Notes under the pieces: generated by a model | The model's input: only the letters and a program-made list of their open reading frames with translations | Databases searched by the model: none | Told to the model about the DNA's origin: nothing | Part shown: in pieces, positions 3,694 through 61,945 of the stretch | Numbering within the stretch: the first letter of the stretch is position 1 | How the letters are laid out: each line of letters begins with the position of its first letter | From: Anodontia alba | Taxonomy: Eukaryota > Mollusca > Bivalvia > Lucinida > Lucinidae | Direction: 5' to 3' | NCBI GenBank assembly: GCA_964016985.1 | Contig: OZ024829.1 | Span: forward strand, 71,926,110 to 71,990,109 | Length of the DNA: 64,000 bases | Program-made: the position numbers and the translations under genes

Positions 3694-5585
3694 GATCCCT
3701 GCCTCATGGTTTCAGAGAAGAAGATTTTTGAAGGTTCTCTTTAGCTATATAGCTCTATATATACATATGACCCCCTAGTGTACACCCATTTTGGAGCCCA
3801 GAGGCTTGATTGGAAGGATTTATGTTGGGGACCACTACACATTGCTACATACTCAATATATAAGCTGTGGGTCTCATGGTTTCAAAGAAGATTTTTTAGG
3901 TTTATTCCCATTATAAGTCTATGGGAGCTAATGACCCCCAGGGCATGGCCAGTTTGGGCCCCAAGAGCTTGATTGGCAGGATTTATGTAGGGGACCACTA
4001 AACATTGGTACATACTAAATATGTAAGCTGTGGGCTTCATGGTTTCGGAGGAGATTTTTTTAAGTTTTTTTTCCATTATAAGTCTATGGGAGCTAATGAC
4101 CCCCACACCCATCCCCCACCGCCCAGGGCATTGCCAGTTTGGACCCGAGGGGCTTGATTGGCAGGATTTATGTAGGGGGTCATTAAACACTGCTACTTAC
4201 TAAATATATAAGCTCTGGGCCTCATGGTTTCAGAGAAGATTTTTTAAGTTTTTTCCCATTATAAGTCTATGGGAGCTAATGACCCCTGGGGTGTGGCCAG
4301 TTTGGGCCCCAGGGGCTTGATTGATAGGATTTATGTAGGGGATCACTAAACATTGCCACATACTAAATATGTAAGCTGTCGGCCTCATGGTTTCAGAGAA
4401 GAAGATTTTTTAAGTTTTTTCCCATTATAAGTCTATGGGAGCAAATGACCCCCGGGGCGTGGCCAGTTTGGACCCCATGGGCTTGATTGGCAGCATTTAT
4501 GTAGGGGACCATTAAACATTGCTACTTACTAAATATATAAGCTCTGGGCCTCATGGTTTCAGCGAAGAAGATTTTTAAGTTTTTCCCATTATAAGTCAGT
4601 TGGAGCTACCAACCCCCGGGGCCTGGCCAGTTTGGGCTCCAGGGGCTTGATTGGCAGGATTTATGTATGGGACCACCAAACATTGCTGCATACTAAATAT
4701 GTAAGCTGTGGGCCTCATGGTTTCAGAGAAGAAGATTTTTTAAGTTTTTTTCCATTATAAGTCTATGGGGGCTAATGACCCCGGGGTGTGGCCTGTTTGG
4801 GCCTGTTTGGGCCCCAGGTGCTTGATTGTCAGGATTTATGTAGGGGCCCACTAAAGATTGCTACATACTAAATATGTAAGCTGTGAGCCTCATGGTTTCA
4901 GAGAAAAAGATTTTTTTTCCATTATAGGTCTATTGGAGCTAATGACCCCGGGTTGTGCCAGTTTGGACCCCAGGGACTTGATTGGCAAGATTTATGTAGG
5001 GGACACCACTAAACATTGCTACATACTAAATATTTAACCTCTGGGCCTCATGGTTTCAGAGAAGAAGATTTTTTTAAGTTTTTCCCATTATAAGTCTATA
5101 GGAGTTCACGACCCCCTGAAGATTTTTTAGGTTTATTCCCATTATAAGTCTATGGGAGCTAATGACCCCCAGGGCATGGCCAGTTTGGACCCCAGGGGCT
5201 TGATTGGCAGGATTTATGTAGGGGACCTCTAAACATTGGTACATACAAAATATATAAGGCGTGGGCCTCATGGTTTCAGAGAAAAAGATTTTTAAAGTTT
5301 TTCCCATTATAAGTCTATGGGAGCTATATATCGGCATGGTGGCCATCTTGATTTATGGACAGTGGACAGATTTATGGACAGTGACCATTTTTACAAATTT
5401 TCAATCCCCCTTAAATACAAGGCTCCACATTAAGTTTGAAGAAATCTGGCCCAGGGGTTTCAGAGGAGAAGTCGTTCAAAGGTGTGAACGGACGGGCAGG
5501 CGGACAGACAGACGGAGGGACAGAGGAAAGACGGACGGAGAGTGACCACAATAGTTCATCTTGAGCCTTTGGCTCAGGTGAGCTA
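3694..5585 (+). mobile_element. Family E tandem-array element, head missing
   Basis: About ten copies of a roughly 165-bp monomer fill 3694-5335. Key words are GGTTTCAGAGAAGAAG, CCATTATAAGTCTATGGGAG, TTGATTGGCAGGATTTATG and CATACTAAATATGTAAGC. A single-copy tail follows (5336-5585) with a GACGGAC-rich tract near 5490-5545 and the hairpin TGAGCC-TTT-GGCTCA (5562-5576), ending CAGGTGAGCTAAAA. The head is lost; the left edge is the LINE 3' end. Short open frames here are a side effect of monomer periodicity. Confidence 0.8.
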
Positions 5586-6663
5586 AAAATAACTAAAATC
5601 ATTCCGATTGGAAATCCAAAATAGCCACCTTGGTGGCCATCTTGAAAATCTATGTTTCACTTCTTTTCCTGAACCGAAAAGCCAAATGACTCGAAACTTG
5701 GTAGGAAGCATTGCAAATGACTTGCAGATCAAAAATAGCTAAAATCATTCCGATTGGAAATCCAAGATAGCGGCCATGGCTGCCATCTTGAAAATTTATT
5801 TTTCGCTTCTTCTCCTGAACTGAATGGCCAATTGACTCGAAACTTGGTAGGAAGCATCGGGGTGACTTGTAGATCAAAATAGCTAAAATCATTCTGATCT
5901 GAAATCCAAGATGGCCGCTATGGTGGCCATCTTGAAAATCTATTTTTCGCTTCTTCTCCTGAATTGAAAGGCTAATTTTCTTGAAACTTGGTAAGAAGCA
6001 TCAGGATGATTTGTAGATCAAAAATAGCTAAAATTTTTCCTATCTGAAATCCATTTTTTTGCTTATTCTCCTGAATCCAAAGGCCAACTGACTTGAAACT
6101 TGGTAGGAAACTTGTAGGTGACTTGTAGATAAAAAAATAGCTCAAATCCTTCCAGTCGGAAATCCAAGATGGCCGCAATCTATTTTTTGCTTCTTCTCCT
6201 GGACCGAAAGGCCAATTGACTCGAAACTTGGTAAGAAGCATTGGGGTAACTTTTAGATCAAAGAAAGTAATATTGTTCTGATCCAAAATCCAAGATGGCC
6301 ACCATGGCAGCCATCTAGAAAATTTATTTTTCACTTCTTTTCTTGAACTGAAAGGCCAATTGACTCAAACCTGGATACGAAGCTTTGGGGTGATTCGTAG
6401 ATTAAATATAGCTAAAATTGTTCAGATCGAAAATCAAAGATGGCTGCCATCTTAAAAAATCTATTTCATGCTTCTTCTCTTGAACAGAAAGGCCAATTGA
6501 CTTGAAACTTGCAGGAAGCATATGGGTGATTGGAAGATCAAAAATACCAAACATACAAGCAGATCTTTTAAGTAAAAAGTTGACAGACGCACGAAACACA
6601 ATGGACAACGGACGAAGACCGGTCACAAAAGCTCACCTTGAGCCTTTGGCTCAGGTGAGCGAA
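5586..6663 (-). repeat. Family A monomers in reverse orientation with a forward-facing tail
   Basis: Reverse-complement family-A monomers (GAAATCCAAGATGGCCGCC, CTTGGTAGGAAGCAT) run from 5586 to about 6560. They are followed in the forward orientation by a tail with GACAGACGCACG/GGACGAAGACCGGTCAC and the hairpin GCTCACC-TTGAGCC-TTT-GGCTCAG-GTGAGC (6631-6660). Monomer and tail orientation therefore disagree, unlike the other family-A elements. No head is seen. Confidence 0.75.
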
Positions 6664-6716: not shown

Positions 6717-9700
6717 ACAAGAGGACTATAATGGTCCTATATCGCTCACCTGATCAAACAGATTTGCAGACTTACTGCTGAAGTTTTAGCCAAGTTCACT
6801 GCTCTAAGATTTATGTATAAATTTTATAGCCCTGCCCCCTACCAACCCCCCTCCCCCCCCCCCACCCCCACAACCACCAAGCCATGCTTTGTTTGTGTTG
6901 AGGTTTTACGTCCCAGTCAACCCAATGGGGTCATGTCGAGCGCGGTCAGTTTACCTAACCACACATTTACTGGGCAGCTTTTTTTCTTTTTAACACATCA
7001 TGACGACTTGACTTAATCTTGAAAGAGGGTCACCAACAGAACATTTCTGCCAAGTTATTTTGAAATTGGTCCAGTGGTTTCTGACAAAAAGATTTTTTAA
7101 AGTGTTTTATATCGCTATAAAGCCCTACCCACTAACGGCTATTTTTTTTTTTTTTGAGGAATCATGACAGCTTGAACAAACTTGGTAGAGGGTAACCAAA
7201 GGAACATTCCTGCCAAGTTAAATTGAAATCGGTTCAGTGTTTTCTGACAAGAAGAAGATTTTTAAAGTTTTCTATTTTGATCTATAGGGAAAATAAGCCA
7301 GTCCCACCCCTTAGCAGCCATGTTTCTTGACAAATCAAGATTGCTTGAACATTCTTGGTAGAGGGTCACAAAAGCATTATTGAAATCTGTCAGGAGGTAT
7401 TTGACAAGAAGAATTTTAAAGTTTTCTATACCGATATATATGGAAAATAAGCCCCGCCCCCTGGGGGCCATGTTTTTTGATGTATCATGAAGGCTTGAAC
7501 AATCTTGGTAGAGGGTCACCAAAGCAACATTCCTGCCAAGTTGCATTGAACTCGGTCCAATGGTTTCTTACGAGAAGGTTTTTAAAGTTTTTTATATAGA
7601 TATATAGGGAAAATAAGCCCCGTCCCCTAGAGGCCATGTTTTTTGACGATTCCTGACAGCTTGAACAACCTTGGTAGAGGGTCACCAAAGAAACATTCCT
7701 GCCAAGTTATATTGAAATCAGTCCATTGGTTTCTGATAAGAAGATTTTTTAGTTTTCTATATAGATATATATGGAAAATAAGCCCCACCCGCTAGCAGCC
7801 ATGTTTTTTGACAAATCACGATTACTTGAACAATCTTGGTAGAGGGTCACGAAGGAAACATTTTTGCCAAGTTATAATGAAATCGGTCTTGTGGTTGCTG
7901 ATAAGAAAATTTTTAAAGTTTTCTATATAGATATATAGGGAAAATAAGTCACCCCTCCCCCACCACTCCTCCCCCCCCCCCCCACCCCCCACCCCCCCCT
8001 CCTTCCCTGGTGGTGGCCATGTTTTTTGACGAATCATGACGGCTTGAACAACCATGAAAGAGGGTTACATAAGAAACATTTCTGCAATGTTATATTGAAA
8101 TCAGTCCAGTGGTTTCTGACAGGAAGATCATTAAAGTTTTCTATACAGATATTTAGGGAAAATATGCCCCGCCCCCTAGCAGCCATGTTTTTTGACAAAT
8201 CATGAATACTTGAACAATCTTGGTAAAGGGTCACCAAGGAAACATTTCTGCCAAGTTATATTGAAATCAGTCCAGTGGTTCCTGACAAAGAGATTTTTTT
8301 CAAGCTTTCTATATAGATATATAGGGGAAATAAGCCCCGCCCCTTAGCAGCCATGTTTTTTGACAAATCACGAGGGCTTGAACAATCTTGGTAAAGGGTC
8401 ACCAAGGAAACATTTCTGCCAAGCTGTACTGAAATCGGTCCAGTAGTTTCTGACAAGAAGATTTTTTTCAAGTTTTCTATATAGATATAAAGGCAAAATG
8501 AGCTCCACCCCCTTGCGGCCATGGTTTTTGATGACTCACGATTACTTGAACAATCTTGGTAGAGGGTCACTATGGAAACATTTTTGCCAAGTTATAATGA
8601 AATCGGTCCAGTAGTTTCTGATAAGAAGATTTTTCAAGTTTTTTATAAAGATATATAGGGAAAATAAGCCCCACCCCCTGGCGGCCATGTTTTTTGACAA
8701 ATCCAAATGGCTTGAACAATCTTGGTACAGAATCACCAAAGGAACATTTCTGCAAAATTACATTGCAATCGGTCCAGTGGTTTTCTGACAAGAAGATTTT
8801 TTTTAAGTTTTCTATATCGATATATAGGGAAAATAGAGGATCACCAAAGGAACATTTCTGCAAAATTATATGGAAATCTGTTCAGTGGTTTCTGACAAGA
8901 AGATTTTTAAAGTTTTCTATATAGATATATAAGGAAAATAAGCCCCGCCCCCTGACGGCCATGCTTTTTGACAAATCCAAATGGCTTGAACAATCTTGGT
9001 AGAGGATCACCAAAGGAACATTTCTGCAAAATTATATGGAAATCGGTCCAGTGGTTTCTGACAAGAAGATTTTTTAAGTTTTCTATATAGATATATAGGG
9101 TAAATAAGCCCCGCCCCCTGGCAGCCATGTTTTTTGACAAATCCAAATGGCTTGAATAATCTTGGTAGAGGATTACCAAAAGAACATTTCTGCAAAATTA
9201 TATGTAAATCAGTCCAGTGGTTTCTGACCAGAAGATTTTTTTTATTTTTATATAGAATAAGCCCCGCCCCCTGGTGGCCATGTTTTTTGACGAATCCAAA
9301 TGGCTTGAACAATCTTGGTAGAGGATCACCAAAGGAACATTTCTGCAAAATAATATTGAAATAGGTCCAGTGGTTTCTGATAAGAAGATTTTTTAAATTT
9401 TCTATATAGATATATAGGGAAAATAAGCTCCGCCCTCTGGCAGCCATGTTTTTTGACGAATCCAAACGGCTTGAAAAATCTTGGTAGAGGATCACCAAAG
9501 GAACATTTCTGCAAAACTATATGGAAATCGGTCCAGTTGTTTCTGACAAGAAGATTTTTTTAAGTTTTCTATATAGATATATAGGGAAAATAAGCTCCGC
9601 CCCCTGGCGGCCATGTTTTTTGACGAATCCAAATGGCTTGAATAATCTTGGTAGAGGGTCACCAAAGGAACATTTCTGCAAAATTATACGGAAATCGGTC

Positions 9701-9971
9701 CAGTGGTTTCTGACAAGAAGATTTTTTAAATTTAGTTAAAATATCTATTTTTAGCTCCTGTGACCTAAATATGCAATAGACCGGAACCATTTGAACAACT
9801 TTGAAAGAGGACCAACCAAGGATCAATTCTGTGAAGTTTGGTCGAATGCCAATCAGTGGTTTAGGAGGAGATGTTGTTTAAAGATTGTGGACGGACGGAC
9901 AGACGGACAACGACGACGGATGGTGAGTGATCACAATAGCTCTTCTTGAGCCTTCGGCTGAGGTGAGCTAA
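6717..9971 (+). mobile_element. Family B tandem-array element, complete
   Basis: The head is ACAAGAGG followed by an imperfect palindrome (ACTATAATGGTCC) and CGCTCACCTGA at 6717-6752. The array from about 7010 to 9735 has some 16 monomers of about 165 bp (GGTAGAGGGTCACCAAAG, GGTCCAGTGGTTTCTGAC, GATATATAGGGAAAATAAGC, CCCCGCCCCCTAGCGGCCAT). The tail at 9736-9971 has TGGACGGACGGACAGACGG, then TGAGCC-TTC-GGCTGA and GGTGAGCTAA. A poly-C/CACCC tract interrupts one monomer (7954-8002). The peptide-like repeats in several frames are the monomer read through, not genes. Confidence 0.85.
6888..6978 (-). mobile_element. SINE family 1, 5'-truncated fragment
   Basis: About 90 bp matching the 3' end of the SINE at 15066-15371 (TTTGTTTGTGTTGAGG through AACCACACATTTACTGGGCA), inserted near the head of the family-B element. 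The tRNA head is missing. Confidence 0.8.
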
Positions 9972-10286: not shown

Positions 10287-12140
10287 ACAAGAGGCCCACG
10301 GGCCACTGGTCGCTCACCTGAGTGACATTGCCACTGCAGATATGCAGATGTTATGCAACATTTTTCCAATCCTGTCATCGCAACTAATGAAAAGATAATC
10401 ATTTAAGCAGTTCTTAATTTTGAAGAAGAATATATATAAGGCATGCCAGTCAATGGAGCGTGATCATTTGAACAAATTCTAAATGGCGGCCAGCTTGGAT
10501 TTATGATCAGCACGATTTTAGCTATTTTTGACCTACGAGTCACCCCAATGCTTCCTACCAAGTTTCGAGTCAAATGGCCTTTCAGTTCAGGAGAAGAAGC
10601 CAAAAATAGATTTTCAAGATGGCTGCCATGGCGGCCATCTTGGATATCCGACTGGCACAATTTTAGCTATTTTTGATCTACAAGTCACCCCAATGTCTCC
10701 TACCAAGTTTGGAGTCAATTGGCCTTTCAGTACAGGAGAAGACGCTAAATATAGATTTTCAAGATGGCGGCCATGGTGGCCATCTGGGATTTCGGATCAG
10801 AACAATTTTAGCTATATTTGATCTACAAATCACCCTGATGCTTCCTATTAAGTTTCAAGTCAAGTGACTTTTGGGGTTTAGGAGAAGAAGCGAAGAATAC
10901 ATTTTCAAGACAGCCGCCATGGCGGCCATCTTGGATTTACGATCGGCATGATTTTAGCTATTTTTGATCTACAAGTCACCCAAATGCTTCCTACCAAGTT
11001 TCGAGTCAACTGGCCTTTCGGTTCAGGAGAAGAAGCGAAAAATAGATTTTCAAGATGGCTGCCATGGTGCACATCCTGGTTTTACGATCGGCACGATTTT
11101 AGCTATTTTTGATCTACAAGTCACCCCAATGCTTCCTAGCAAGTTTGGAGTCAACTGGCCTTTCGGTTCAGGAGAAGAAGCGAAAAATAGATTTTCAAGA
11201 TGGCTGCCATGGAGGCCATCTTGGATTTCGGATAGGCACTATTTTAGCTACTTTTCAGCTATAAGTCACCCCATTGCTTCCTACCAAGTTTGGAGACAAT
11301 TGGCTTTTGGGTTTAGGAGTAGAAGCGAAAAATAGATTTTCAAGATGGCCATCATTGCAGCCATCTTGGATTTCCGATCGGTACGATTTTAGCTATTTTT
11401 TATCTACAAGTCACCCTGGTGCTTCCTAGCAAGTTTGGAGTCAATTGGCCTTTCCGTTCAGGAGAAGAAACGAAAAATAGATTTTCAAGATGGCGGCCAT
11501 AGCAGCCATCTTGGATTTCCGATCGGCACGATTTTAGATACTTTTGATCTACAAGATGCTTCCTTGCAAGTTTGGAGTCAATTGGCCTTTCGGTTCAGGA
11601 GAAGAAGAGAAAAATAGATTTTCATGATGGCCCCCATGGCGGCCATCTTGGATTTCCAATCGGCACGATTTTAGCTATTTTTGACCTACAAGACACCCCG
11701 ATGCTTCCTAGCAAGTTTGGAGTCAATTGGCCTTTCGGTTCAGGAGAAGAAGAGAAAAATAGATTTTCAAGATGGCGGCTATGGCGGCCATCTTGGATTT
11801 CCGATTGGCACGATTTTAGCTATTTTTGATCTACAAGTCACCCTGATGCTTCCTAGCAAGTTTAGAGTCAAATGGCCTTTTAGTTCAGGAGAAGAAGCGA
11901 AAAATAGATTTTCAAGATGGCGGCCATCTTGGATTTCCGATCGGCACGATTTTAGATATTTTTGATCTACAAGTCACCCTGATGCTTCCTACCAAGTATC
12001 GAGTCAATTGGCCCAGGGGTGTAGGAAGAGTAGGCTTTTAAAGCAATTGTTGCCGCCGCACAACGGACGACGCACGACTGACGACGGACATTGACTGACC
12101 ACAATAGCTCACCATGAGCACTTCTTGCTCAGGTGTGCTA
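10287..12140 (+). mobile_element. Family A element 1, complete
   Basis: The head ACAAGAGG plus GGCCCACGGGCC plus TCGCTCACCTGAG lies at 10287-10321, followed by a conserved head body (CACTGCAGATATGCAGATG). Roughly ten monomers of about 145 bp follow, each with CAAGATGGCGGCCATNGCGG, TTTTAGCTATTTTTGATC, TACAAGTCACCCCAATGC and GGTTCAGGAGAAGAAGCG. The tail begins at AATTGGCCCAGGGGTGTAGG and has ACGGACGACGCACGACTGAC, then GAGCACTTCTTGCTC and AGGTGTGCTA. Confidence 0.87.
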
Positions 12141-12303: not shown

Positions 12304-15065
12304 ACAAGAGGTCCATGGGCCACACACCTCAGTGACATAGCCACTGCAGATATGCAGATGTTATGCAACATTTTTCCAATCCTGTCACTGCAACTAATTA
12401 AAAAATCATCCTTTAAGCAGTTCTTAATTTTGAAGAAGAATATTATATATGGCATGACAGTAAATGGAGTGTGATCATTTGAACAAACTCTCAATCACAT
12501 TTCAACAGTAGGATCAATGTGAAATTTGGTGGCAACTGGCTAAGTGGTTTCTGAAGAATCACGATTTTATACATGTAAACAGCACAGTGGCAGGGAAAAA
12601 TAATAAACATAAACAAGATGGCAGCCATCTTGGATTTCCAATCAGAATGATTTTAGCTACTGTTGATCTACAAGATACTTCCAATGAACTTTTTGTCAAT
12701 TGCCCTTTCAATTCAGGAGAAAAAGTTCAAAACAGATTTTCAAGATGGCCGCCATAGCTGCAATATGGGATTTCCTATCGCAACGATTTGAGCTATTTTT
12801 GATCTACAAGTCACCCCAATGCTTCCTACCAAGTTTTGAGTCAATTGGCCTTTCAGTTCAGAAGAAGAAGGGAAAAATAGATTTTCAAGATGGCTGCCAT
12901 CTTGGATTTCCGATCGGAACGATTTCAGCTATTTTTATATCTACAAGTCATCTCGATGCTTCCTACCAATTTTCAAATCAACTGGCCCTTTGGTTCAGCA
13001 AAATAAGCGAAAAAAAGAGTTTCAAGATGGACGCCATGACGGCCATCTTGGATTTCCGATCCAAACACTTTAAGCTATTTTAGATCTACGTCACCCGAAT
13101 GCTTCCTACCAAGTTTCGAGTCAAATGGCCATTCAGTTCAGGAGAAGAAGCGAAAAATAGATTTTCAAGATGGCTGTCATGGTGGCCATCTTGGATTTCT
13201 GATAGGGATGATTTTAGCTATTTTTGATCTACAGGTCACCCTGATGCTTCCTACCTTGTTTAAAGTCGATAAGCCTTTCGGTTCAGGAGAATAAGTGAAA
13301 AATAGATTTCAAGATGGCCGCCATGGCAGCCATCTTGGATTTCCAATTGGAACGGTTTTAGCCATTTTTAATCTATAAGTTACCCCTATGCTTCCTACCA
13401 AGTTTCATGTCTATTGGCTTTTGGGTTTAGGAGAAGGGAAAAAAAGATTTTTAAGATGGCCACCATGGCAGCCATCTTGGATTTCAGATCAGCATGATTT
13501 TAGCTATTTTTGATCTACAAGTCACCCTGATACTTCCTACCAAGTTTGGAGTGAATTGGCCTTTCGGCTCAGGAGAAGAAGCGAAAAATAGATTTTCAAG
13601 ATGGCGGCCATGGCGGCCATCTTGGATTTCCAATTGGAACAATTTTAGCTACTTTTGATCTACAAGTCACCCTTATGCTTCCTAGCAAGTTTGGAGTCAA
13701 TTGGCATTTGGGGTTAGGAGAAGAAGCGAAATAGATTTTCAAGATGGCTGCCATGGCAGTCCACTTAGATTTCCGATCAGTATGATTTTAGCTATTTTTG
13801 ATCCACAAGTCACCCCGATGCTTCCTAGCAAGTTTGGAGTCAATTGGCCTTTCGGTTCAGGAGAAGAAGCAAAAAAATAGATTTTCAAGATGGCTGCCGT
13901 GGCAGCCATCTTGGATTTCCTATCGGAACAATTTTATCTATTTTTGATCTATAAGTCACCCGAATGCTCCCTACCTTGTTTGGAGTCAATTGGCTTTTGG
14001 GTTTAGGAGAAGAAGCGAAAAATAGATTTTCAAGATGGCTGCCATGGCGGCCATCTCGGATTTCCAATTGGCACCATTTAAGCTATTTTTCATTTACAAG
14101 TCACTCCGATGCTTCCTAGCAAGTTTGGAGTCAACTGGCCTTTCGGTTCAGGAGAAGAAGCGAAAAACAGATTTTCAAGATGGCGGCCATCTTGGATTTC
14201 CGATCGGCAGGATTTTAGCTATTTTTGATCTACAAGTCACCCTGATGCTTCCTACCAAGTTTGGAGTCAATTGGCCTTTCGGTTCAGGAGAAGAAGCGAA
14301 AAACAGATTTTCAGGATAGCAGCCATGGCAGCCATCTTGGATTTCTAATCAGAATGATTTAAGCTACTTTTGGTTTACAAGTCATCCTGATGCTTCCTAC
14401 CAAGTTTCAAATCAATTGGCCTGTTGGTTCAGGAGAAGAAGCCAAAAATATATTTTCAAGATGGCCACCACCGCTGCCATCTTTGATTTCTGATCGGAAG
14501 GATTTTAGCTATATTTGATCTACAAGTCACCCCAATGCTTCCTACCAAGTTTCAACTGGCCTTTTAGTTCAGGAGAAGAAGCTAAAAATAGATTTTCAAG
14601 ATGGCGGCCATGGTAGCCATCTTGGATTTCAGTTCTGAATGATTTTAGCTATTTTTTATTTACAAGCTACCCCGATGCTTCCTACAAAGTTTCAAGTCAA
14701 CTAGCCTTTTGGTTCTGGAGAAGCAAGAATTGATTTTTAAGATGGCTGCCACGGTGGCCATCTTGGATTTCCGGAATGATTTTAGCTATTTTTGATCTAC
14801 AAGTCACCCTGCTGCTTCCAACCAAGTTTCATGTCAACTGGCCTTTTAGTTCAGATGAAGCAAAAAATAGATTTTCAAGATGGCCATCATGGTGGCCATC
14901 TTGGAATTGGGATCGAAAAGATTTTAGCCATTTTTAATCTACAAGTCAACCCGATGAATCCTAATAAGTTTCAAGTCAATTGATCTTTTGGTTCAGGAGG
15001 AGAAGCGAAAAATAGATTCTCAAGATGGCCACCATGATGGCCATCTTGGATTTCTGATCGGAATG

Positions 15066-15371
15066 TTTGTTTGTGTTGAGGTTTTACGGCGCAGTCAACC
15101 CAATGGGGTCATGTCGAGCGCGGTCAGTTTACCTAACCACACGTTTACTGGGCAGGCTTAGTCCTCTAAGCGGATAACCAGAATTGTGCACATTCTTTCG
15201 CCAGAAACTGAAGACTGCCCTTCTTGAATCAGCGGAAGGAAGAGAATGACCGTAGAAAATATTTCATGATCAATCTCCACGAAAGAATGTTGCCGACCTC
15301 GGCGGGGGTTGAACCTGCGACCTCCTGGTCTCCAGTCGAACGGCGCATCCAACTGAGCCACCGAGGCCGGC
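15066..15371 (-). mobile_element. tRNA-derived SINE (family 1), complete, minus strand
   Basis: A 306-bp insertion inside a family-A monomer with a 13-bp target duplication TCTGATCGGAATG (15053-15065 and 15372-15384). Read on the minus strand it begins with a tRNA-like head: A box in GGTGGCTCAGTTGGATGC, B box in GGTTCAACCCCCGCC. It ends in TAAAACCTCAACACAAACA. A 67-codon open frame in it is the antisense of nothing functional; it is the SINE itself. Confidence 0.93.
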
Positions 15372-15617
15372 TCTGATCGGAATGATTTTAGCTATTTTTG
15401 ACCTACAAGTCACCCCTGATGCTTCTTACCAAGTCTCAAATCAATTGGCCTTTTGCTTCAGGAGTAGAAGCGAAAAATAGATTTTCAAGATGGCTGCCAA
15501 GGTAGCCATCTAGGATTTTGATCAGAAAGATTTTAGCTATTTTTGATCTACAAGTCACCCTGATGCTTCCTACCAAGTTTCAAGTCAATTGGCCTTTTGG
15601 TTCAAAAGAAGAAGCAA

Positions 15618-17592: not shown

Positions 17593-18233
17593 AAAATAGA
17601 TTTTCAAGATGGCCATCTTGGATTTCTGATCTGAATGATTTTAGCTTCTTTTGATATACAAGTCACCCCCAACGTTTCAAGTCAATTGGTCTTTTGGTTC
17701 AGGAGAAAACTGAAAAATAGATTTTCAATATGGCCACTTTGGTGGCCATCTTAGATTTCAGATCGTAATGATTTCAGCTATTTTTTATCAACAAGTCACC
17801 CCGATGCTTCCTACCAAGTTTCACGTTAACTGGCCTTTCGGTTCAGGAGGAGAAGCGAAAGATTTTAGCTATTTTTTATCTACAAGTCTACCCGATGAAT
17901 CCTAACAAGTTTCAAGTCAATTGACCTTTCAGTTCAGGAGGAGAAGCTAAAAATAGATTTTCAAGATGGCCACCACGATGGCCATCTTGGATTTCCGATC
18001 GGAACTATTTTAGCTATTTTTTTATCTACAAGTCACCCCGGATACTTCTTACCAAGTCTCAAGTCAATTGTTTCAGGAGTAGAAGCGAAAAATAGAATAT
18101 CAAGATGGCTGCCAAGGTAGCCATCTAGAATTTCCGATCAGAAAGATTTTAGCTATTTTTGATCTACAAGTCACCCTGATGCTTCCTACCAAGTTTCAAG
18201 TCAAGTGGCCTTTTGGTTCAGGAGAAGAAGCAA

Positions 18234-18603
18234 ACAAGAGGGCAATGATGGCCTGTAATGCTCACCTGAGCAACATAGCACTTTGAGAACCTGATCTAGA
18301 ACTGATCAAGGCAAACATTCTGATCAAAGTTCAAAATGATTATATTAACAAGTAAGACAATGTAGCATGTCTAATGGACTGTGAAATAAAGGTCAAGGTC
18401 AAATATGGATGACTGCACTCAAGAGGCCATGCTAATATGTAAGATTTCATAGAGGCAAACATTCTGACCAAGTTTCATCAAGATTGGGTCAAAACTGTGA
18501 CCTCTAGAGTGTTAACAAACTAATTGTTGACGACGAACGACGGATGACGACGGACATAGGGTGATGACAATAGCTCACCCTGAGCTTTTGCTCAGGTGAG
18601 CTA
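18234..18603 (+). mobile_element. Family C element 2, minimal 370-bp form
   Basis: Carries the family-C head (ACAAGAGGGCAATGATGGCC, GCTCACCTGAGC) and tail (TGACGACGAACGACGG, TGAGCTTTTGCTCA, GGTGAGCTA) with essentially no tandem array between them. It is inserted in the same position of a family-A monomer (AAGAAGCAA before, AAAACAGATTTTC after). Confidence 0.85.
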
Positions 18604-21892: not shown

Positions 21893-21984
21893 AAAAGCAA
21901 GAAAATTTTTTGTAAAGCTTTAACTTATTTTCTTATTTTATACTGACTTTATTTTTGTTCTTCAAGGGAGCCAACTCAGAAGAG

Positions 21985-23430: not shown

Positions 23431-23633
23431 TTAAAAAACAAAAAAAAATGTTTATAAGTTTTGATATTAGTCAAGCTTCTTAATTCTGTATCATTTAATA
23501 AATGTATTTTTAAAGATTTAATAATGGCAACATTTCCTTGCAAATCTAATAAAAGAAGATGTAAAAAAAAAAATAAATAAAATAAATAACTTGCCCATAT
23601 GGCCATAACTTTAGTTATTTGTATTTATGACAT

Positions 23634-27137: not shown

Positions 27138-27168
<31 letters not shown>

Positions 27169-49934: not shown

Positions 49935-49940
49935 CAAAAG

Positions 49941-51442: not shown

Positions 51443-53664
51443 TAGCTCACCTGAGCTATGCTAAGGATGAGCTATAGTGATAACTTTTTGTCCGTCGTCC
51501 GTCCGTTAACATTTTCAAATGACTTCTCCTCTGAAGCCTCTGAGCCAATTTTGTTCAAATTTCATGTGGAGCCACCTTAGATTGGGGGAACAAAAGATTG
51601 CTAAAATGGTCGCGGTCCGTTGACCAAGATGGCCGCAATGCCAATATATGGTAAAAACCTTAAAAAATCTTCTTCTCCAGAACCAAGGATTCCTTGGGGC
51701 TGAATCTTTGCACAAATCATCTGGGACAGTAGGTCTACCAAAGTTGCTAAAATAATGTTGTACATTGACATTTGACATTTCTACGTTGAGGTCAAGTTTG
51801 CTTCCCTATGCATTTGTATGGGCACCATACATTTGTATGGGAAAAATGTTGAGAATTTCAAATGACTTCTCCTCTGAAGCCTCTGGGCCAGTGTTGCTCA
51901 AATTTCATGTGGAGTCGTTGGGGGAATGAAAGATTGCTAAAATGGTTGCGGTCCATTGACTAAGATGGCCACCATGTCCATATATGGTAAAAACCTTTAA
52001 AAATCATCTTCTCCAGAACCGAGGATGCCTTGGGGCTGAATCTTTTCACAAATCATCGGGGATGGGAGGTCTACCAAAGTTGCTAAAATGATGGTCGTAC
52101 ATTGACGTTTGACCTGTTTACGGCGATGTCAAGTTTGCTTCCGTATGCATTTGTATGGACCCCATACATTTGTATGGAAAAAATGTTGAGAATTTCATAT
52201 GACTTCTGCTCTGAAACCTCTGGGCCAATGTTGCTCAAATTTTATATGGAGCCTCCTTGGGGTAGGGGAACGAAAGATTGTTAAAATGGTTGTGGTCCGT
52301 TGACCAAGATGGCTGCCATGCCCATATATGGTAAAAACCTTTAAAAATCTTCCTCTCCAGAACCAAATAAGCCCTGGGGCCTAATCTTTGCACAAATCAT
52401 CGGGGACAGGAGATCTACCAAAATTGCTAAAATGATGGTCCTGCATTGAGATTTGACCTTTTTACAGCAAGGTCAAATTTGCTTCCCCATGCATTTGTAT
52501 GGGCCCTATACATTTACATGTATATGGGAAAAATGTTGAGAATTCATATTTTAGACATCTCCTCTATAATCCAGTTGAATCGAAACTTGATGATGAGCAT
52601 TGAGGCTCTTAGTAGACACAAAATAGCTAAATGAGCCAATAGAAAATCCAAGATGGCCACCACAGCCGCCATCTTGAAAATCAATTTTCGACATTTCCCA
52701 AACCTTTGATTGCTTTGAGTGGTAACTTGCTCTGTAGCAACAGGATGACTTCTGGATCGAAACAAGCTAAAATTATGTTGATCGGAAATCCAAGATGGCT
52801 GCAATGGTTCTGCTCCATTGAACAAGATTGCTGCCAGAGCTAAAAATAGAAACTCTTCAAACGACATCTCGTCCTTGGCCAATGGCCTAATTTCAAAATA
52901 TTTGCACAGAAGTGTTCCTCCAATGGCCCTCTACCAAAATTGCTAAAATGATTCCCCTTGGCTGAACAAAATGGCGGCCAGAGCTAAAAATCGAAAAACC
53001 TTTAAAAGACATCTTTGAAGCCAGTGTCCGGATTGCAAAGTAGTTTCATAGAAGTGTTCCTCTTATGGCGCTTTACCAAAATTGCTAAAATAGTTCAGCT
53101 CAGCTGAAGAAAATGGCCGCCAGAGCTAAAAATAGAAAAAAAAAAAACCCTTAAAACTACATCTCCTCCTTGGCCAGAGGCCTGATTTCAAAATGATTTC
53201 ATAGAAATGTTCCTCTTATCCCCTTTTATAAAATTGCCAAAATGGTTCTGCTCTGCTGAACAAAGTTATCACCAGAGCTTAAAGTAGAAAAACTGTTAAA
53301 CAACATCTTTGTGGCCAGTGGCTGGATTTCAAAATAATTTCACATCAATGTTCCCCTTTACTAAAATTGCTAAAATGGTTCTGCTCTGCTGAATAAAATG
53401 GTTGCCAGAGCTAAAAATAGAAAAAAACCTTTAAAGGACAGGATAAGAAGATGACCCAATTAACTTCTGAAAAAAATCTGAATTCTTTTTTTACTTGTGG
53501 CCCTTTGAAAATTTCGGCATTTTAACCTTGTAAGCAAGATCACTCAACAACTGTTTAAGCCATTGTATTGAAACTTGACAGGCTGATAGGGAATGATGAG
53601 TAAATGACCTGATTAACTTATAGCAGTTAACTCAGGTGAGGGTTGTGGCCCATGGGCCTCTTGT
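51443..53664 (-). mobile_element. Family F element, complete, minus strand
   Basis: Read on the minus strand, the head ACAAGAGG, CCCATGGGCC and CTCACCTGAG is at 53664-53630, and the tail (GACGGACGACGGAC, then TGAGCTCAGGTGAGCTA-like) ends at 51443. Near the head the monomers are about 165 bp (plus strand: GGTTCTGCTCTGCTGAACAA, AAATGGCCGCCAGAGC). Near the tail they are about 330-345 bp (TGCATTTGTATGGGC, GAAGCCTCTGGGCCA). The array is therefore mixed. Confidence 0.8.
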
Positions 53665-53791: not shown

Positions 53792-54300
53792 TATTATACC
53801 CCCAGCAAACTTCTGTTTGTGGGTGGGGGGGTGGGGGGGGGGGCAGGGGGGGGGGGGGGTGTATACTGTTTTCACGTTGTCCGTGTGTCCATCCGGGATG
53901 CTGGTTTTTTCCTACTATCTTGAAAACGCAGTGATGGATATTCATCAATTTCTGCACACATTGATATCATTAATGTGTACCTAAATAAGAGAAAGTAAGG
54001 GCTAGGGGCCAATTCTCTTAGAGTTATTGCCCTTTGTAAATTTTTTTCTTAATGCAGTAAAAAGTTTGTGTGCAGGAGATATGGAGCGGACAAGAAAGTG
54101 TACGGAAGGACAGATAGATGGACAGACGGATGGACAGACAGACAAAGGCCATTTCTCTAATCCCCAATCCGCTTCGCAGCTGGGGATTAATAATCCCCCA
54201 TCCACTTCGCGGCGGGGGATTAAAAACTGAGCCTTGTTTATGCAGTAAAAAGTTTGTGTGCACACTATCTCTTTAACCAATGGCTGGAATTTGACCAAAC

Positions 54301-55640
54301 TAGCATAGATACATCATCAGGATGGGGGAAAGAAAGGATTAGATTTTGGTGACCTTGACCTTATTTTCAAGGTCACTACATTATGAATACTCAACAAGGC
54401 AGTCTGAAGGACAGCTATATCCCCTGCCGCAGAATGACAGTGGAGTGGCCGTAAAATTCAAGGCTCAAACTGGTAGCCTTCAATTGTGACCTTGACCTTG
54501 AGTCTGCATTGTTGAGCTATGGGTTCTGCACATCATCTCACTAAGGCGAACATTTGACCCAAATTTGATAAATATCTTTCAAAGGGTTCAGGGGATATGA
54601 ACATGAAATTCAAGGCTCAAACTTGTGACCTTTAACTGTGACCTTGACCTTGAGTAGGCATGCTTGAGTTATGGGTTTTGCACATCGCCTCACTAAGGCA
54701 AACATTTGAGCAAAGTTTCATGAAAATCTTTCAAAGGGTTCAGGAGATATGGAGTGAACAAGAAAGAGACGGATGACCTACCTTGACCTTGAGTCTGCAT
54801 AGGTTCTACACATCATCTCACTAAGGCGAACACTTGACCCAAATTTAACAAGGCAGTCTGAATGGCAATGGAGCGGCCTCAAAATTCAAGGCTCAAACTG
54901 GTGACCTTCAACTGTGACCTTGACCTTAAGTCCACAGGGCTGAGTTATGGGTTCTGCACATTATCCCAATGAGGTGAACATTTGACCAAAATTTAGAGAA
55001 AATCCTCCCAGGGGTAAAAGAGATACAGAGCGGACACAAAATTCAAGGCTCAAACCTGTGACCTTGAACTGTGACCTTGTTAGTCTGCATGGTTGAGCTA
55101 TGGGATCTGCACATCATTTCACTGAGGCAAACATTTGACCAAAATTAAAAGAAAATCCTTCCAGGGCTATAGGAGATATCGAGTGGACATGAAATTCAGG
55201 GCTCAAACTCGCGACCTTGAACTGTGACCTTGTCCTTGAGTCCCCATGGCTGATTTATGGGTTCTGCACATCGTCCCACAGGTGAACATTTGACTAAAGT
55301 TTAGAGAAAATCCTCCCAGGGGTAAAAGAGATACAGAGCGGACACGAAATTCAAGGCTCAAACCTGTGACTATGAACTGTGACCTTGACCTTGTGTCCGC
55401 ATGGTTGAGTTATTGATTCTGCACATCGTCTCACTAAGGTGAACATTTGACCAAAGTTTAAAGAAAATCCTTCCACTAATATTGGAGATACAGAGTGGAC
55501 ACAAAATTCAAGGCTCAAACCCATGACCTTGACCTGTGACCTTGACCTTGAGTTGGCATGGTTGACTTATGGGTTCTGCACATCGACTCACTGAGGCGAA
55601 CACTTGACCAAAGTATAATAAAAATCTTCCAAAAGGTTCA
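54301..55640 (+). repeat. Variant family-G sub-array
   Basis: Monomers of a different type (AATTCAAGGCTCAAAC, TGACCTTGACCTTGAGTCTG, GGGTTCTGCACATCATCTCA) lie inside the outer family-G element. They are bounded by GATATGGAGCGGACAAGA and GACAGACGGACGGACAGAC tail-like words at both ends (54085-54140 and 55655-55695). This could be a further, older inserted element. Confidence 0.6.
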
Positions 55641-56963
55641 GGAGATATGGAGCGGACAAGACAGTGTTACAGAAGGACAGACAGACGGACGGACAGACAA
55701 AGGCCCAATCCTCTTCGCGGCCGGGGATTAATAATCCCCCATCCGCTTTGTCGTGGGGGATTAAAAAGTGAGCCTTGTTAATGCAGTAAAAAGTTTGTGT
55801 GCACACTATTTCTTTAACCAATTACTGGAATTTGACCAAACTAGCACAGATACGTCATTAGGATGGGGGAAAGAAGTGATTAGATTTTGGTGACCTTGAC
55901 CTTATTTTCAAGGTCACTACATTATAAATACTCAAAAAAGTGAGCCTTGTTAATGCAGTAAAAAGTTTGTGTGCAAACTATCTCTTTAAACAATGGCTGA
56001 AATTTGACCAAACTAGCACAGATACATCATCAGGATGGGGGAAAGAAGGGATTAGATTTTGGTGACCTTGACGTTATTTTCAAGGATTTTGGTGACCTTG
56101 ACCTTATCAACACACCTGAGCACGAAGTGCTCATGGTGAGCTATTGTGGTCAGTCAATGTCCGTTGTTCGTCGTCTGCGTGCGGCGTCAACAATTGCTTT
56201 AAAAGCCTACTCCTCCTACACCCCTGGGCCAATTGACTCGATAGTAGGTAGGAATTATCGGGGTGACTTGTAGAACAAAAATAGCTAAAATCGTTGCAGT
56301 CGGTAGGAATCATCGGGGTGACTTGTAGAACAAAAATAGCTAAAATCGTTGCGATCGGAAATCCAAGACTGCCGCTATGGCTGCCATCTTGAAAATCTAT
56401 TTTTCGCTTCTTCTCCTGAATCGAAACGCCAACTGACTCCAAACTTGGTAGGAAGCATTGGGGTGACTTGTAGATCAAAAATAGCTAAATCCATGCCAAT
56501 CAGAAATCCAAGATGGCCACCATCTTGAAAATCTATTTTTTGCTTCTCCTAAACCCAAAAGTCAATTGACTCCAAACTTAGTAGGAAGCATTGGGGTGAC
56601 TTATAGATCAAAAATAGCTAAAATTGTTCCGATCAGAAATCCAAGATGGCCGCCATGGCGGCCATCTTGAAAATCTGTTTTTCGCTTCTTCTCATGAACC
56701 GAAAGGCTTTTTGACATTAAACTAGGTAGGAAGCATAGGGGTGGCTTGTAGATCAAAAATAGCTAAAATCTTGCCGATCCAAAATCCAAGATGGCCGCCA
56801 TGGCGGCCATCTTGAAAATCTATTTTTTTGCTTTTTCTCCTAAACTGATTGACTCCAAACTTGGTAGGAAGCATTGGGCTGACTTATAGTCAAAAATAGC
56901 TAAAATCATTCCGATGGGAAATCCAAGATGCCCTTTCACTTCTTCTCCTGAACCGAAAGGTTT

Positions 56964-58851
56964 ATTATACCCCCCGCAAACTTTGTTTGTGGGGGGTGGG
57001 TGGGTGTATACTGTTTTCATGTTGTCTGTCTGTCCGTCCGTCCGTGTGTCCGTCTGGGATGCTGGTTTTTTTCCTAATATCTTGAAAACACAGTGATGGA
57101 TATTCATCAATTTCTGCAGATAAGTAAGGGCTAGGGGCCAATTCTCTTGGAGTCATTGCCCTTTGTAAATTTTTGTCTTAATGCAGAAAAAAGGCAGAAA
57201 AAAAGTTTGTGTGCACACTATCTGTTTAACCTATGGCTGGAATCAAACTAGCACAGATACATCATCAGGATGGGGGGGGGAGAAGTGATAAGATTTTGGT
57301 GACCTTGACCTTATTTTCAAGGTCACTACATTATAAATACTTAAAAAGGAGCCTAAAGGATCCTTGTTAATGAAGTAAAAAGTTTGTGTGCACAATATCT
57401 CTTTAATCAATGGCTGGAATTTGACAAAACTAGCACAGATATATCATAAGGATGGGGCAAAGAAATGATTAGATTTTGGTGACCTTGACCTTATTTTCAA
57501 GGTCAACACACTATAAATACTCAAAAATGTGAGCCTTGTTAATGCAGTAAAAAGTTTGTGTGCACTCTTTAACCGATGGATGGAATTTGACCAAACTAGC
57601 ACAGATACATCATCAATATGGGGGAAAGAAGTGATTAGATTTTGGTGACCTTGAACTTATTTTCAAGGTCACTACATTATAAATACTCAAAAAGGAGGCT
57701 ATAGGAGCCTTGTTAATGAAGTAAAAAGTTTGTGTGCACAATATCTCTTTAACCAATGGCTGGAATTTGACCGAACTAGCACAGATACATCATAACGATG
57801 GGGAAAAGAAATGATTAGATTTTGGTGACCTTCACCTTATTTTCAAGGTCACTACACTATAAATACTCAAAAAAGTGAGCCTTGTTAATGCAGTAAAAAG
57901 TTTGTGTGCACATTATCTCTTTAACCAATGGCTGGAATTTGACCAAACTAGCACAGATACATCATCAGTATGGGGGAAAGAAGTGATTACATTTTGGTGA
58001 CCTTGACCTTATTTTCAAGGTCACTACATTATAAATACTCAAAAAGGAGCCTAAAGGAGCCTTGTTAAGGAAGTAAAAAGTTTGTGTGCACAATATCTCT
58101 TTAACCAATGGCTGGAAATAGACCAAACTAGCACAGATTTTTTTTTTTTTTTTTTTTTTTTTGATTTGGGTTTTACGGCCTTTTCAAGAATATTTCACTT
58201 ATATCGAGCCGATCGTTCATTGAAGGTGGGCGAAAACCGGAGAACCCGGAGAAAAACCACCTGACCATCCGTAAGCAGAACTTGGCTTTCCCACATATGA
58301 CCCGAGCGAGGCTCGAACCACAGCGGTGAGAAACCTAATGGATTAAGAGTCAACTCTCTTATCCACTAGGCTACGGGGGCCCGCAACTAGCACAGATACA
58401 TCATAAGAATGGGGCAAAGAACTGATTAGATTTTGTTGACCTTGACCTTATTTTCAGGGTCACTACACTATAAATACTCAAAAAAGTGAGCCTTGTTAAT
58501 GCAGTAAAAAGTTTTTGTGCACATTATCTCTTTAATCAATGGCTAGAATTTGACCAAACTAGCACAGATACATCATCAGGATGGGGGAAAGAAGTGATTA
58601 GATTTTGATGACCTTGACCTGATTTTCAAGGTCACTACATTATAAATACTCAAAAAGTGCGCCTTGTTAATGCAGTAAAAAGTTTGTGTGCACACTATCT
58701 CTTTAATCATTTTCTGGTTTTATTAGATTTATGTGACCTTGACTTTATTTTCAAGGTCACGCTGGCACTTTGAAACTTGAACTTTGTTAGAAAAAGGTTT
58801 TATTCTTTATGCAGGGGGTATTGAATAAGCGTTGCTTATTGACAATTTTCA
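56964..58851 (+). mobile_element. Family G element, inner copy
   Basis: The head hairpin CCCCCCGCAAAC-TTT-GTTTGTGGGGGG (56970-56993) is followed by GTCTGTCCGTCCGTCCG. About eight monomers of roughly 170 bp follow, then the tail hairpin AATAAGC-GTT-GCTTATT (58824-58840) and GACAATTTTCA. It is flanked by AAAGGTTT and TTGACATTAAAC, which rejoin to the family-A reverse monomer. A SINE is nested at 58139-58384. Confidence 0.85.
58139..58384 (-). mobile_element. tRNA-derived SINE (family 2), complete
   Basis: A 246-bp insertion with a 13-bp target duplication AACTAGCACAGAT (58126-58138, 58385-58397) inside a family-G monomer. Read on the minus strand it starts GCGGGCCCCCGTAGCC, with an A box in TAGCCTAGTGGATAAG and a B box in GGTTCGAGCCTCG, and ends in a poly-A run (poly-T, 58139-58162). 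It is not related to SINE family 1. Confidence 0.92.
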
Positions 58852-61314
58852 TTGACATTAAACTAGGTAGGAAGCATCGGGGTGACTTGTAGATCAAAAA
58901 TAGCTAAAATTGTGCCGATTGGAAAATTTATTTTTTGCTTCTTCTCCTAAACCCAAAAGCCAATTGACTCCAAACTTGGTAGGAAGCATTGGGGTGACTT
59001 ATAGATAAAAAAAATAGCTAAAATCATCCTGAGTGGAAATCCAAGATGGCTGTCTTGGCAGCCATCTTGAAAATCTATTTTTTGCTTCTTCTCCTAAACT
59101 GAAAAAGCCAATTGACTTGAAACTTGGTAGGAAGCATCGGGTTGACTTGTAGGTCAAACGTAGCTAAATATTGCTGATCGGAAATCCAAGATGTCTTCCG
59201 GCCATCCTGAAAATCTATTTTTCGCTTCTTCTCCTGAATCAAAAGGCTTATTGACTTTAATTTTGGTAGGAAGCATCGGGGTGACTTGTAGATTGGTAGG
59301 AAGCATCGGGGTGACTTGTAGATCAAAAATAGCTAAAATCATCCCTATTCGAAATCCAAGATGGCCGCCATGGCTGCCATCTTGTGTTTTATGTATACTT
59401 GTATAGGGAAAACCTTTATAAAAATCTTTTTGTCTGAAACTAGAAAGCCCTGGCCTTTGACATTTGGTTACATAGCTTCATCTAGTTCACATGCCTATTC
59501 AACAATAAGGCACAATGCGATCATGCTTCTGTCCAGCAGCTTTTCCCACACCTCCTCCTCCTCCTCCCCCCCCCCCCCCACCCCCCCTCATCCGAAAACA
59601 TTCATTTTCAACAAGTTTTAAACATACATAGTCCTATGAAGAGAAATCATAGTCTTTTAGAATATACTAGAGACAATGACACTCAGGTGAGCAGATTAGG
59701 ACCCTCTGGGCCCTCTTGTTTTCAAGGTCACTACACTATAAATACTCAAAAAGTGAGCCTTGTGTGCACTCTATTTCATGAATCAATAGATGGAATTTGA
59801 CCAAATTAGCACACACAGATACATCATTGGGATTACGGAAAGAAGTGATTAGATTTCAGTGACCTTTATCTCGTTTTCAAGGTCACACTGGCACTTTGAA
59901 ACTCAAATTTTGATAGAAAAAGGCTTGTGTGCACACTATATCTTGAACCAACGGCTGGAATTTTAACAAACTAGCACAGATACATTGTTAGGACATAGGA
60001 AAGAAGTGATTAGATTTTGTGATCTTGACCTCAGTTTCAAGGTCACTACATTATAAAGACTCCAAAAATGAGCCTTGTAAAAAGTTTGTGTGCACACTAT
60101 CTCTTTAACCAATGGCTGGAATTTGACCAAATTAGCACAGATACAGCATCAGGATGGGGGAAAGAAGTGTTTAGATTTTGGTGGCCTTCACCTTATTTTC
60201 AAGGTCACTACATTATAAATACTCAATAAGTGAGTCTTGTGTGCACTCTATCTCATGAATCAATAGATGGAATTGGACCAAACTAGCACAGATATATTAT
60301 TGGTATTGGGGAAAGAAGTGGTTAGATGTTGGTGACCTTTATCACATTTTCAAGATCACACCGGCACTTTGAAACTCAAAGTTTAATAGAAAAAAGCTTG
60401 TGTGCACACTATATCTTGAACCAATGGCTGTAATTTTAACAAACTAGCACAGATACATCATTAATAAATGGGAAAGAAGTGATTAGATTTGTGTGACCCT
60501 GACCTCATTTTCAAGGTCTCTACATTATAAAAACTCTAAAAATGACGCTTGTGTGCACCCTATCTCATGAATCATTAGATGGAATTTGATCAAGCATAGA
60601 TACTTCATTGGGATGAGGGAAAGAAGTTATTAGATTTTGGTGACCTGGACCTCATTTTCAAGGTCACACTGACACTTGGAAACTCAAATTTTGATAGAAA
60701 AAAGCTTATGTGACACATTGATATCAGTAAGGTGTACCTACATTAGAGAAAGTAAGGGCTAGGGGCCCATTCTTTTGGAGTTATTGCCCTTTGTAAAATT
60801 TCTTAATGCAGTAAAAAGTTTGTGTGCACACTATCTCTTTAACCAACGGCTGGAATTTGACCAAACTAGCATAGAGACATCATCAGGATTTGGGAAAGAA
60901 GTGATTAGATTTTGGTGACCGTGACCTTATTTTCAAGGTCACTACATTATAAATACTCAAAAAGTGAGCCTTGTGTGCACTCTATCTTTTTTCCTGCATA
61001 TCTTGATTAGTATTATTAGGAATCTTAACACATTTTACATAAATGTTCATATTCATGAGATGCTGCTACAGAAAAAGAAGGGCCAGGGGATCAATAGTTA
61101 TTCCCCTTTGTAATTTTTTAATGTCCGTAACACTTTTGTTTTTCCTGTGTATCTTGCTTAATAATTTTGGTAATCTTGTTTTATTAGAGTTTGGTGATCT
61201 TGACTTTATTTTCAAGGTCACGCCGGCACTTTGAAACTTAAATTTTGATAGAAAAAAGTTTTATGCTTTATGCAGGGGGGTATCGAATAAGCACTGCTTA
61301 TTGACAATTTTCAT

Positions 61315-61945
61315 TATAGCCCTGCTTTGAAAAAAGTGGGGCTATACTGGATTTGCCTTGTCCTTCTGTCATTCCTTCCATCTGTTATTCCTTCCTTCTG
61401 CCCTTCCCAATTATCAGATAAATTTTCGTTGAACTTTTCCCAGGAACTGTAAGGGTTACAAAGTTGAAACTTGGTACACACCATACCCTGCGGGTTGATG
61501 TATTGTGTATACTGGAATCAAGGGCAAGGGCCCATAACTCACGAGTTAAATCCCTTGATAGGTTTTACAATTTTTGTTACAGATTTCTCAGGAACTATGA
61601 AAGTTGTAAAGTTGAAACTTGGTACACTCATGGACAATGGGCTGATTTATCATGTTTACTGGAATTAGGGGCAATGGCCCATAACTCTTGGAGTTACATC
61701 CTTTGATAGGTTTTACAATTTACCTTTAATGAAAAATTTTCATTACAGATTTCTCAAGAACTATGAAAGCTGTGAAGTTGAAACTTTGTACACACATGAA
61801 CAATGGGCTAACGTACCATGTGTACTAGAATCAGGGCCAAGAGCTTATAACTCTTGTAGTTAATCCCTTGATGGGTTTTATTGTCACACTTTTCTCAAGT
61901 TACAAAGTTGAAACGTGGTCCACACATGGACAGTGGGTTGATGTA
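61315..61945 (+). mobile_element. Family H element, 5' part
   Basis: The head hairpin TATAGCCC (61315-61322) and GGGCTATA (61339-61346) is followed by single-copy sequence with CCTTCCTTCTGCCC. About three monomers of roughly 160 bp follow (GTAAAGTTGAAACTTGGTAC, AATGGCCCATAACTCTTGG, TTGATAGGTTTTACAATTT). Truncated by the AT-rich TIR element at 61946. Confidence 0.7.

Follow-up and report, generated by a model that had tools for sequence, protein, structure and literature searches.

Helentron-associated non-coding elements (HINEs) carry at their 5' end a subterminal repeat, its inverted repeat and a microsatellite, and at their 3' end a subterminal repeat followed by a palindrome (PMC4067079, PMC7492417). 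By the rules of PMC4067079, members of one family share at least 11 bp of identical subterminal inverted repeat, and members of one subfamily are at least 80% identical over the last 60 bp. Here we describe elements of this kind in a 64,000-bp stretch (the window) of the lucinid bivalve Anodontia alba (assembly GCA_964016985.1, contig OZ024829.1, positions 71,926,110 to 71,990,109, forward strand), in which tandem arrays of ten repeat families lie between similar ends. An earlier note on this DNA had proposed one Helentron-dependent system in which the ends are fixed and unrelated monomer arrays are exchangeable cargo. Our analysis revealed that the elements are HINEs; their arrays are very probably moved by rolling circle, with a Helentron having a 3' terminus of the same class as the likely source of proteins.

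The closest parallel is Cg_HINE of Crassostrea gigas (PMC7492417), which likewise has a subterminal inverted repeat, its inverted repeat, a microsatellite, a 3' palindrome and a T-rich target without duplication, central repeats mostly of 140-180 bp, and double consecutive arrays in one element; in its group 2, related flanks enclose unrelated repeats, as here. This likeness is structural, resting on anatomy and not on sequence identity of flanks or repeats with the published consensus. In the same oyster, eight Helitron-N elements with Boxes 4 and 5 have a common 53-bp start and 42-bp end, and the flanks of eleven satellites were searched for boxes of this kind (PMC8268682). The DINE-1/HINE families of PMC4067079 agree with the elements of A. 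alba in end anatomy and TT preference; pearl elements are similarly modular with internal repeats, and the BIV160/Cg170 satellites form a large family that keeps two conserved motifs despite divergence, as is the case here in kind (PMC5139131). Shared ends with different repeats are already known in C. gigas, and the novelty claimed earlier for monomer exchange was overstated in view of these precedents (PMC7492417, PMC8268682).

The motif ACAAGAGG occurs 11 times in the window (nine times on the forward strand and twice on the reverse), and at ten of these sites, the exception being 12304, it is followed by GCTCACCTGAG (no more than one mismatch), in most cases with a short palindrome in between, which is lost at 24834; at one additional end of this type, 15618, ACAAGAGG is altered at one position. 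The opposite ends consist of a GACGGAC-like tract, a hairpin and CTCAGGTGAGCTA, terminating at 5585, 6662, 9970, 12140, 17592, 18603, 21892, 30581 and 47768 on the forward strand and at 12215 and 51443 on the reverse; a tail-like site at 48788 has no GACGGAC tract. Inside the elements, some of which are truncated and which are often nested in one another, lie tandem arrays with units of 145-178 bp, the single exception being 344 bp, assigned to families M1-M10. Different hairpin ends, which had been noticed for two families, do exist, and four families (M5-M8) carry them at the 5' end. Because of the layout of HINE ends in PMC4067079 and PMC7492417, the polarity given before is reversed: the former head, with ACAAGAGG, is the true 3' end, and the former tail is the true 5' end. 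Read in the true orientation, an element consists of a T-rich target, the 5' subterminal repeat AGCTCACCTGAGC with the inverted repeat on which it folds back, a GTCC microsatellite, the array, the 3' subterminal repeat CTCAGGTGAGC, a GC palindrome and CTCTTGT. HINEs have subterminal inverted repeats of 11-15 bp, the 5' one within a few nt of the end and the 3' one internal to the palindrome, and the elements here conform to this; AGCTCACCTGAGC lies 1-2 nt from the 5' end, and CTCAGGTGAGC about 25 nt from the 3' end, closer than the 38-60 bp quoted for mite HINEs. The palindrome near the 3' terminus, another HINE feature, was read directly in the sequence. In single-strand folding, 5' hairpins reached z <= -3 against shuffles at four of six tested ends and 3' hairpins at two of three; the 5' ends of M1 (5585) and M2 (9970) and the 3' end at 10287 showed no excess over shuffles.

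The elements of the window are as follows.
3690..5585, reverse strand: M1 HINE with 166-bp monomers that lacks its 3' end; the true 5' end, with hairpin and GACGGAC tract, is at 5585
6717..9970, reverse strand: complete M2 HINE with 166-bp monomers; true 5' end at 9970, 3' end at 6717
10287..12140, reverse strand: complete M3 HINE with 145-bp monomers
12304..24608, reverse strand: M3 HINE enlarged by nested elements; 5' end at 24608 read by eye
15618..17592, reverse strand: M4 HINE with 145-bp monomers, nested in the M3 array
18234..18603, reverse strand: 370-bp M4 HINE with one monomer fragment, nested at the same M3 monomer site
18865..24368, reverse strand: M5 HINE with a 155-bp array at 23633-24298; ends read by eye
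19278..21892, reverse strand: M3 HINE nested in the M5 element
25350..30581, reverse strand: M2 HINE interrupted by a nested M3 HINE
27938..29712, reverse strand: M3 HINE inside an M2 array, its filled site having as many As as the intact monomer
45493..47768, reverse strand: complete M4 HINE
51443..53664, forward strand: HINE with a 3' end of type 3E, carrying M9 (344 bp), M3-like and M10 (151 bp) repeats in succession
54158..55763, reverse strand: M6 arrays (157 bp) with a GACGGAC tract and the hairpin end GGGGATTA
56960..60969, forward strand: arrays of M7 (about 178 bp) whose 5' end is an ACCCCCC hairpin
61315..61945, forward strand: M8 element with 165-bp monomers and an ATAGCCC hairpin 5' end; 3' end not found

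The M1 element adjoins an M3 array; no ACAAGAGG head is present near 3694, and the element appears truncated there. The enlarged M3 HINE encloses the M4 elements 15618-17592 and 18234-18603 and the M5 element 18865-24368, the latter having a different 5' hairpin class and itself enclosing an M3 HINE. The M7 arrays are interrupted by an M3-bearing HINE with its 3' end at 59719.

Far beyond the window, the same ends recur together. The spaced head pattern was found 17,585 times in the 1.86-Gb genome, against one occurrence for the control, and GCTCACCTGAG alone 55,444 times, 11-fold more than its reversed control (5,020); along with the ten of 11 ACAAGAGG sites that lead to GCTCACCTGAG, this bears out the common head-and-tail architecture noted earlier. 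Among 28 heads taken from the genome-wide matches of this pattern, the palindrome was of the M3/M9/M10 type in 14, of the M4 type in 10, of the M2 type in three and of another type in one. At the first 100 listed genome places, all on contig C1, 23 of 34 pairs of subterminal repeats at most 4 kb apart were convergent, a number reached in none of 10,000 strand shuffles. Heads and tails are the ends of one unit, because neighbouring repeats converge far more often than shuffled strands allow, and the expectation that they would be co-terminal outside the window was borne out.

Three nested insertions inside arrays of other families, where an intact monomer serves as the empty site, show the target. 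All three filled sites lie within an A-run (a T-run in the true orientation) and have no target duplication; the number of As is exact at two of them and one longer at the third, as counted by eye allowing one G-to-A change at both M4 sites. One and the same M3 monomer site, between GAAGAAGC and AAAAATAG, was used by two M4 elements and, judging by the flanks, by the M5 element. Together with the mostly T-rich flanks at sampled loci, these insertions agree with the T-rich or TT target without duplication that is typical of HINEs, while the terminal inverted repeats and target site duplication of cut-and-paste miniature inverted-repeat transposable elements (MITEs) were not found.

Past the subterminal repeat and the palindrome the ends are not fixed, and the flanks vary by family. 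Identity over the last 60 bp is 80-95% within M2, M3 or M4 and 58-78% between families, with the degraded copy at 24834 only 48-60% identical to all others; over the inner 60 bp beyond, identity between families is 43-60%, and up to 65% for 24834, figures given without a shuffle control and with the head at 15618 cut 7 bp late. By the published rules, the identical subterminal repeat of at least 11 bp places all of them in one family, M2, M3 and M4 form separate subfamilies, and 24834 is too degraded to be placed. Pairing of arrays with 3' flanks was assessed in 28 two-ended elements, nine from the window and 19 of 21 pairs from fetched loci (excluding L026, with 37 bp, and an opposite-strand parse in L025); the loci were picked at paired sites of the genome-wide GCTCACCTGAG list, so the sample favours intact elements. 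A recurrent combination was found in 24 of the 28: M3 with flank 3A in six, M2 with 3B in five, M4 with 3C in seven, and M9 with 3A in six, some over 67-113 bp only. The other four comprise one M9 and M10 element with 3E, one 3E/3A mosaic, one uncertain case (L016) and one clear cross-family chimera, L027, where an M3 5' end and array are joined to an M4 3' end. In this painting the 5' labels of short blocks are noisy, and the final 37 bp of L015 paint as 3E. Thus carriers do exchange modules, usually where the arrays are related and seldom where they are dissimilar.

A candidate autonomous partner was identified among the 127 matches of the Rep-domain profile PF14214 in the genome. On contig C4, an uninterrupted 2,697-aa open reading frame (ORF), starting at about 24105414, contains matches to Herpes_teg_N, DUF6570, Rep and PIF1; the first of these we take to be an OTU-like domain. 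At its C-terminus there is an endonuclease match (PF14529, E-value 4.8e-6, 26.9 bits) just under the Pfam cut-off of 27.4 bits. The frame also contains RGSPH, the Helentron signature of PMC4067079, and with GSP preceding the Rep histidines, the PIF1 helicase and the slightly sub-cut-off C-terminal endonuclease it has the features of a Helentron. Downstream of the ORF are an M5 HINE insertion and then two 3' ends set 300 bp apart: first a 3E-type end, whose last 60 bp match the window HINE 51443-53664 at 93% identity, and next a 3A-type end. A copy on C16 (at about 30487019, by offset) matches the C4 3' region at 98.9% over 701 bp in one sample and 96.7% over 701 bp in another; the homology ends after the class-i motif CCTCTTGT, and the 400 bp of C16 beyond it have no significant match within 16 kb of C4. 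At its terminus, C16 has a block that matches the HINE at L009 at 89.6% identity over 308 bp and the M3 HINE of the window at 91.9% over 198 bp; the 3' boundary is drawn from BLAST alignments. The junction of 3E and 3A was found at 12 loci in the genome, with none for the control. Among the matches listed, there are at least six Helentron copies with at least 87% identity (C4, C16, two on C5, C9 and C7), and four of these six have the junction downstream on the same strand, at C4:24116374, C16:30497988, C9:71109984 and C7:56602315, at distances of 2.9, 2.9, 5.2 and 10.3 kb from the end of the endonuclease; the other eight junctions are more than 50 kb from any Helentron match among those listed. 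The pair of copies on C4 and C16 suggests a composite that, once nested, was mobilized in one piece, at any rate as regards the 3' side.

The proposal of a Helentron-dependent system is supported by the HINE anatomy and by this resident element with the same kind of 3' terminus. As to the predicted autonomous partner with Rep, helicase and endonuclease domains and the same ends, an element of this composition, not of the cut-and-paste type, is present, and the correspondence covers the 3' terminus alone. Several observations weigh against this reading. The Helentron and the HINEs were compared at that one terminus, and the inner 3E may be the Helentron's own end, the outer 3A block having been gained from a host HINE. 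In the C16 copy a stop codon interrupts the matched part; the two copies on C5 have no listed junction downstream; and ungapped identity at the terminus, 36/130 before and 35/130 after, is uninformative owing to an indel. No class-i end was found within 1.5 kb of the best 30 of 127 Rep loci, and two sampled Rep families have no credible class-i ends in 10-16 kb. In the window, the M3 array at 5586-6661 is opposite in orientation to the adjoining 5' end at 6662, an arrangement that could reflect either inversion of the array or the meeting of two truncated elements. Locus L019 has the same 5' end type as 6662, followed by sequence that looks M2-like by eye.

The two Rep families just mentioned were rejected as partners. 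A 1,142-aa family (L059, L060) has a different 5' hairpin and no class-i ends in 10 kb of each of two copies, and two copies of a 2,204-aa family (L061+L062, L063+L064) yielded no credible class-i end over 16 kb, the one class-i match being obtained at the loosest setting and on the opposite strand. The two copies L059 and L060, with their different hairpin 5' end, are 99.3% identical over 6,216 bp; with 37 Rep matches of 87-92 bits that terminate at profile position 189, they represent a second, probably recently amplified Helitron-like family. A damaged Helentron copy with the 3E-3A junction downstream lies at C9:71104270-71110009, about 0.8 Mb to the left of the window.

The description of the monomers as unrelated fails for most families, as they are similar mainly on one strand and share a module of about 60 bp, common to seven of the ten families in one orientation. 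In element orientation, the strongest links between consensus monomers are M1-M2, M2-M10, M3-M9 (z 19.6) and M9-M10, with z from 16 to 20; M1-M9, M2-M9, M1-M3, M3-M10 and M2-M6 are more weakly linked (z from 5.6 to 9.2), as are M6 and M7 with M7 flipped (z 6.6), and similarity on the reverse strand is z 3.7 for M3-M9 and 2.5 for M9-M8. Module profiles were trained on windows chosen by eye, and each held-out family was then scored over its full length in either orientation, with dinucleotide shuffles as the control. In the leave-one-out test, M1, M2, M3, M6, M7, M9 and M10 each scored above all 300 shuffles in the forward orientation and no family did so in the reverse; the signal was weak for M4, matched by five of 300 shuffles, and for M8 in the direction of its ends, matched by eight of 300, and M5 gave none. 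Here M6 and M7 were in each other's training set, which is not the case for an independent profile built only from M1, M2, M3, M9 and M10, with targets oriented by their own ends. With this profile none of 200 shuffles was as good as M6, none and three of 200 as good as M7, and one of 200 as good as M8; the values for M4 (30 and four of 200) and M5 (nine of 200) were weak, reversed M6 was equalled by nine of 200 shuffles by best hit and by none by summed score, and the M7 segment beside its microsatellite did not match. The orientation of M7, first set by similarity, is matched independently by its own 5' hairpin; the head at 59719 was discarded as a guide to it, belonging to the element inserted in M7. 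Judging by sequence similarity, most of the monomers apparently share ancestry; the weak module signal of M4 and M5 counts against it. A literature text search for module-like words yielded nothing relevant, and a scan of IMG/VR with one exact module pattern gave no match. A similar module presumably occurs in arthropod repeats, and M1 and M2 presumably resemble oyster Cg170.

These data are best accounted for as follows. The arrays form the central part of HINEs, which are related to Helentrons, do not code for protein and would move by rolling-circle replication, the resident Helentron with the same-class 3' terminus being the likely source of proteins. Many families may persist because only short end signals need to be conserved, leaving the monomers and inner flanks to drift. 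New combinations would arise mainly when one element inserts into a T-run in the array of another and copying then terminates at the 3' signal of that neighbour; nesting in T-runs would line up several compatible 3' ends and so move flanks and arrays between carriers. A broader variant, which we regard as possible and rather doubtful, makes one end class a common currency: the two tandem 3' ends of the Helentron would both act as terminators, copies would stop at any compatible downstream 3' end, shuffling would be a by-product of termination choice, and the module would be an ancient cis-acting part from which arrays repeatedly arise. The module might, on the other hand, be convergent or selected, such as a site for replication or binding that different arrays acquired independently. 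Its presence across 5' hairpin classes (M6, M7, M8), mainly in the direction predicted by the ends, would fit such an origin, which we nevertheless consider unlikely, as the similarity of M1-M2, M2-M10 and M3-M9 extends far past the module.

True exchange of cargo, with a fixed pair of ends repeatedly capturing unrelated satellite monomers, is the explanation closest to the original proposal, and the chimera L027, the use of flank 3A by both M3 and M9 (six elements each) and the weak module similarity of M4 argue for it. It appears improbable all the same, given that the pairing of monomer and 3' flank is kept in 24 of 28 elements, that M3 and M9 are themselves related, and that flanks co-diverge with the monomer; the idea of fixed ends with exchangeable arrays is not supported as proposed by a sample in which a swap between dissimilar families is clear in one case of 28. 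Mariner-like DDE_3 matches in the window, 471-836 (below cut-off) and 50577-50984, could point to cut-and-paste MITEs driven by a DDE transposase, yet the three filled sites without target duplication, the asymmetric ends with a 3' palindrome, and the Rep/helicase element, whose 3' terminus is of the same kind, make this very improbable. Least credible of all is that the arrays, long and nested as they are, represent ordinary satellites or segmental duplications with the ends as chance neighbours, in the face of the genome-wide excess of spaced heads over the control, the convergent ends, and the monomers intact across insertions.

Taking the arrays as parts of Helentron-dependent HINEs, the system differs from those described in several respects. 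Repeat orientation and the pairing of repeat clusters with flanks were reported as consistent in Cg_HINE, whereas mosaic flanks occur here; no autonomous Helentron could be related to Cg_HINE, whereas the elements here have a Helentron whose 3' terminus is of their kind, as well as a double 3' end and a cross-family module (PMC7492417). Unlike the HINEs of PMC4067079, one family carries at least five monomer types, and the 3' subterminal repeat is closer to the end. The work of PMC8268682 concerns a different genome, and the partner and the module comparison are, as far as compared, seen here only. The shared module is partly foreshadowed by the conserved motifs of BIV160/Cg170; compared by description, it also reaches families with other end classes (PMC5139131). 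Possible novelties are the Helentron partner, the double terminus and the module found across families; among the open-access papers listed, judged mostly by title, none announces a HINE partner in bivalves, which is weak evidence of absence. If a Helentron and a large HINE population share a 3' terminus, the question of the partner becomes testable within one genome. Copies that are nested, mosaic or double-ended provide a concrete way for satellite arrays to change carriers, and the shared module raises the possibility that numerous bivalve satellites now regarded as "unrelated" form a single old lineage that such elements carry.

Several other features were found in the window. Two inserts in arrays, 15066-15370 and 58140-58390, look like short interspersed elements by eye; a scan of the window with ARAGORN found no tRNA gene. 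The DDE_3 transposase fragments lie on the reverse strand (471-836) and on the forward strand (50577-50984). Matches to Integrase_H2C2 and DUF5641 at 32080-33418 on the reverse strand are presumably the remains of a BEL/Pao-like retroelement. An open frame with a PHD finger (2581-3456, forward strand), resembling by eye a part of a non-LTR (long terminal repeat) element, ends just left of the truncated M1 array. Tandem repeats of 20 bp with a similar unit occur outside the HINE clusters at 36147-36322 and 38657-38784.

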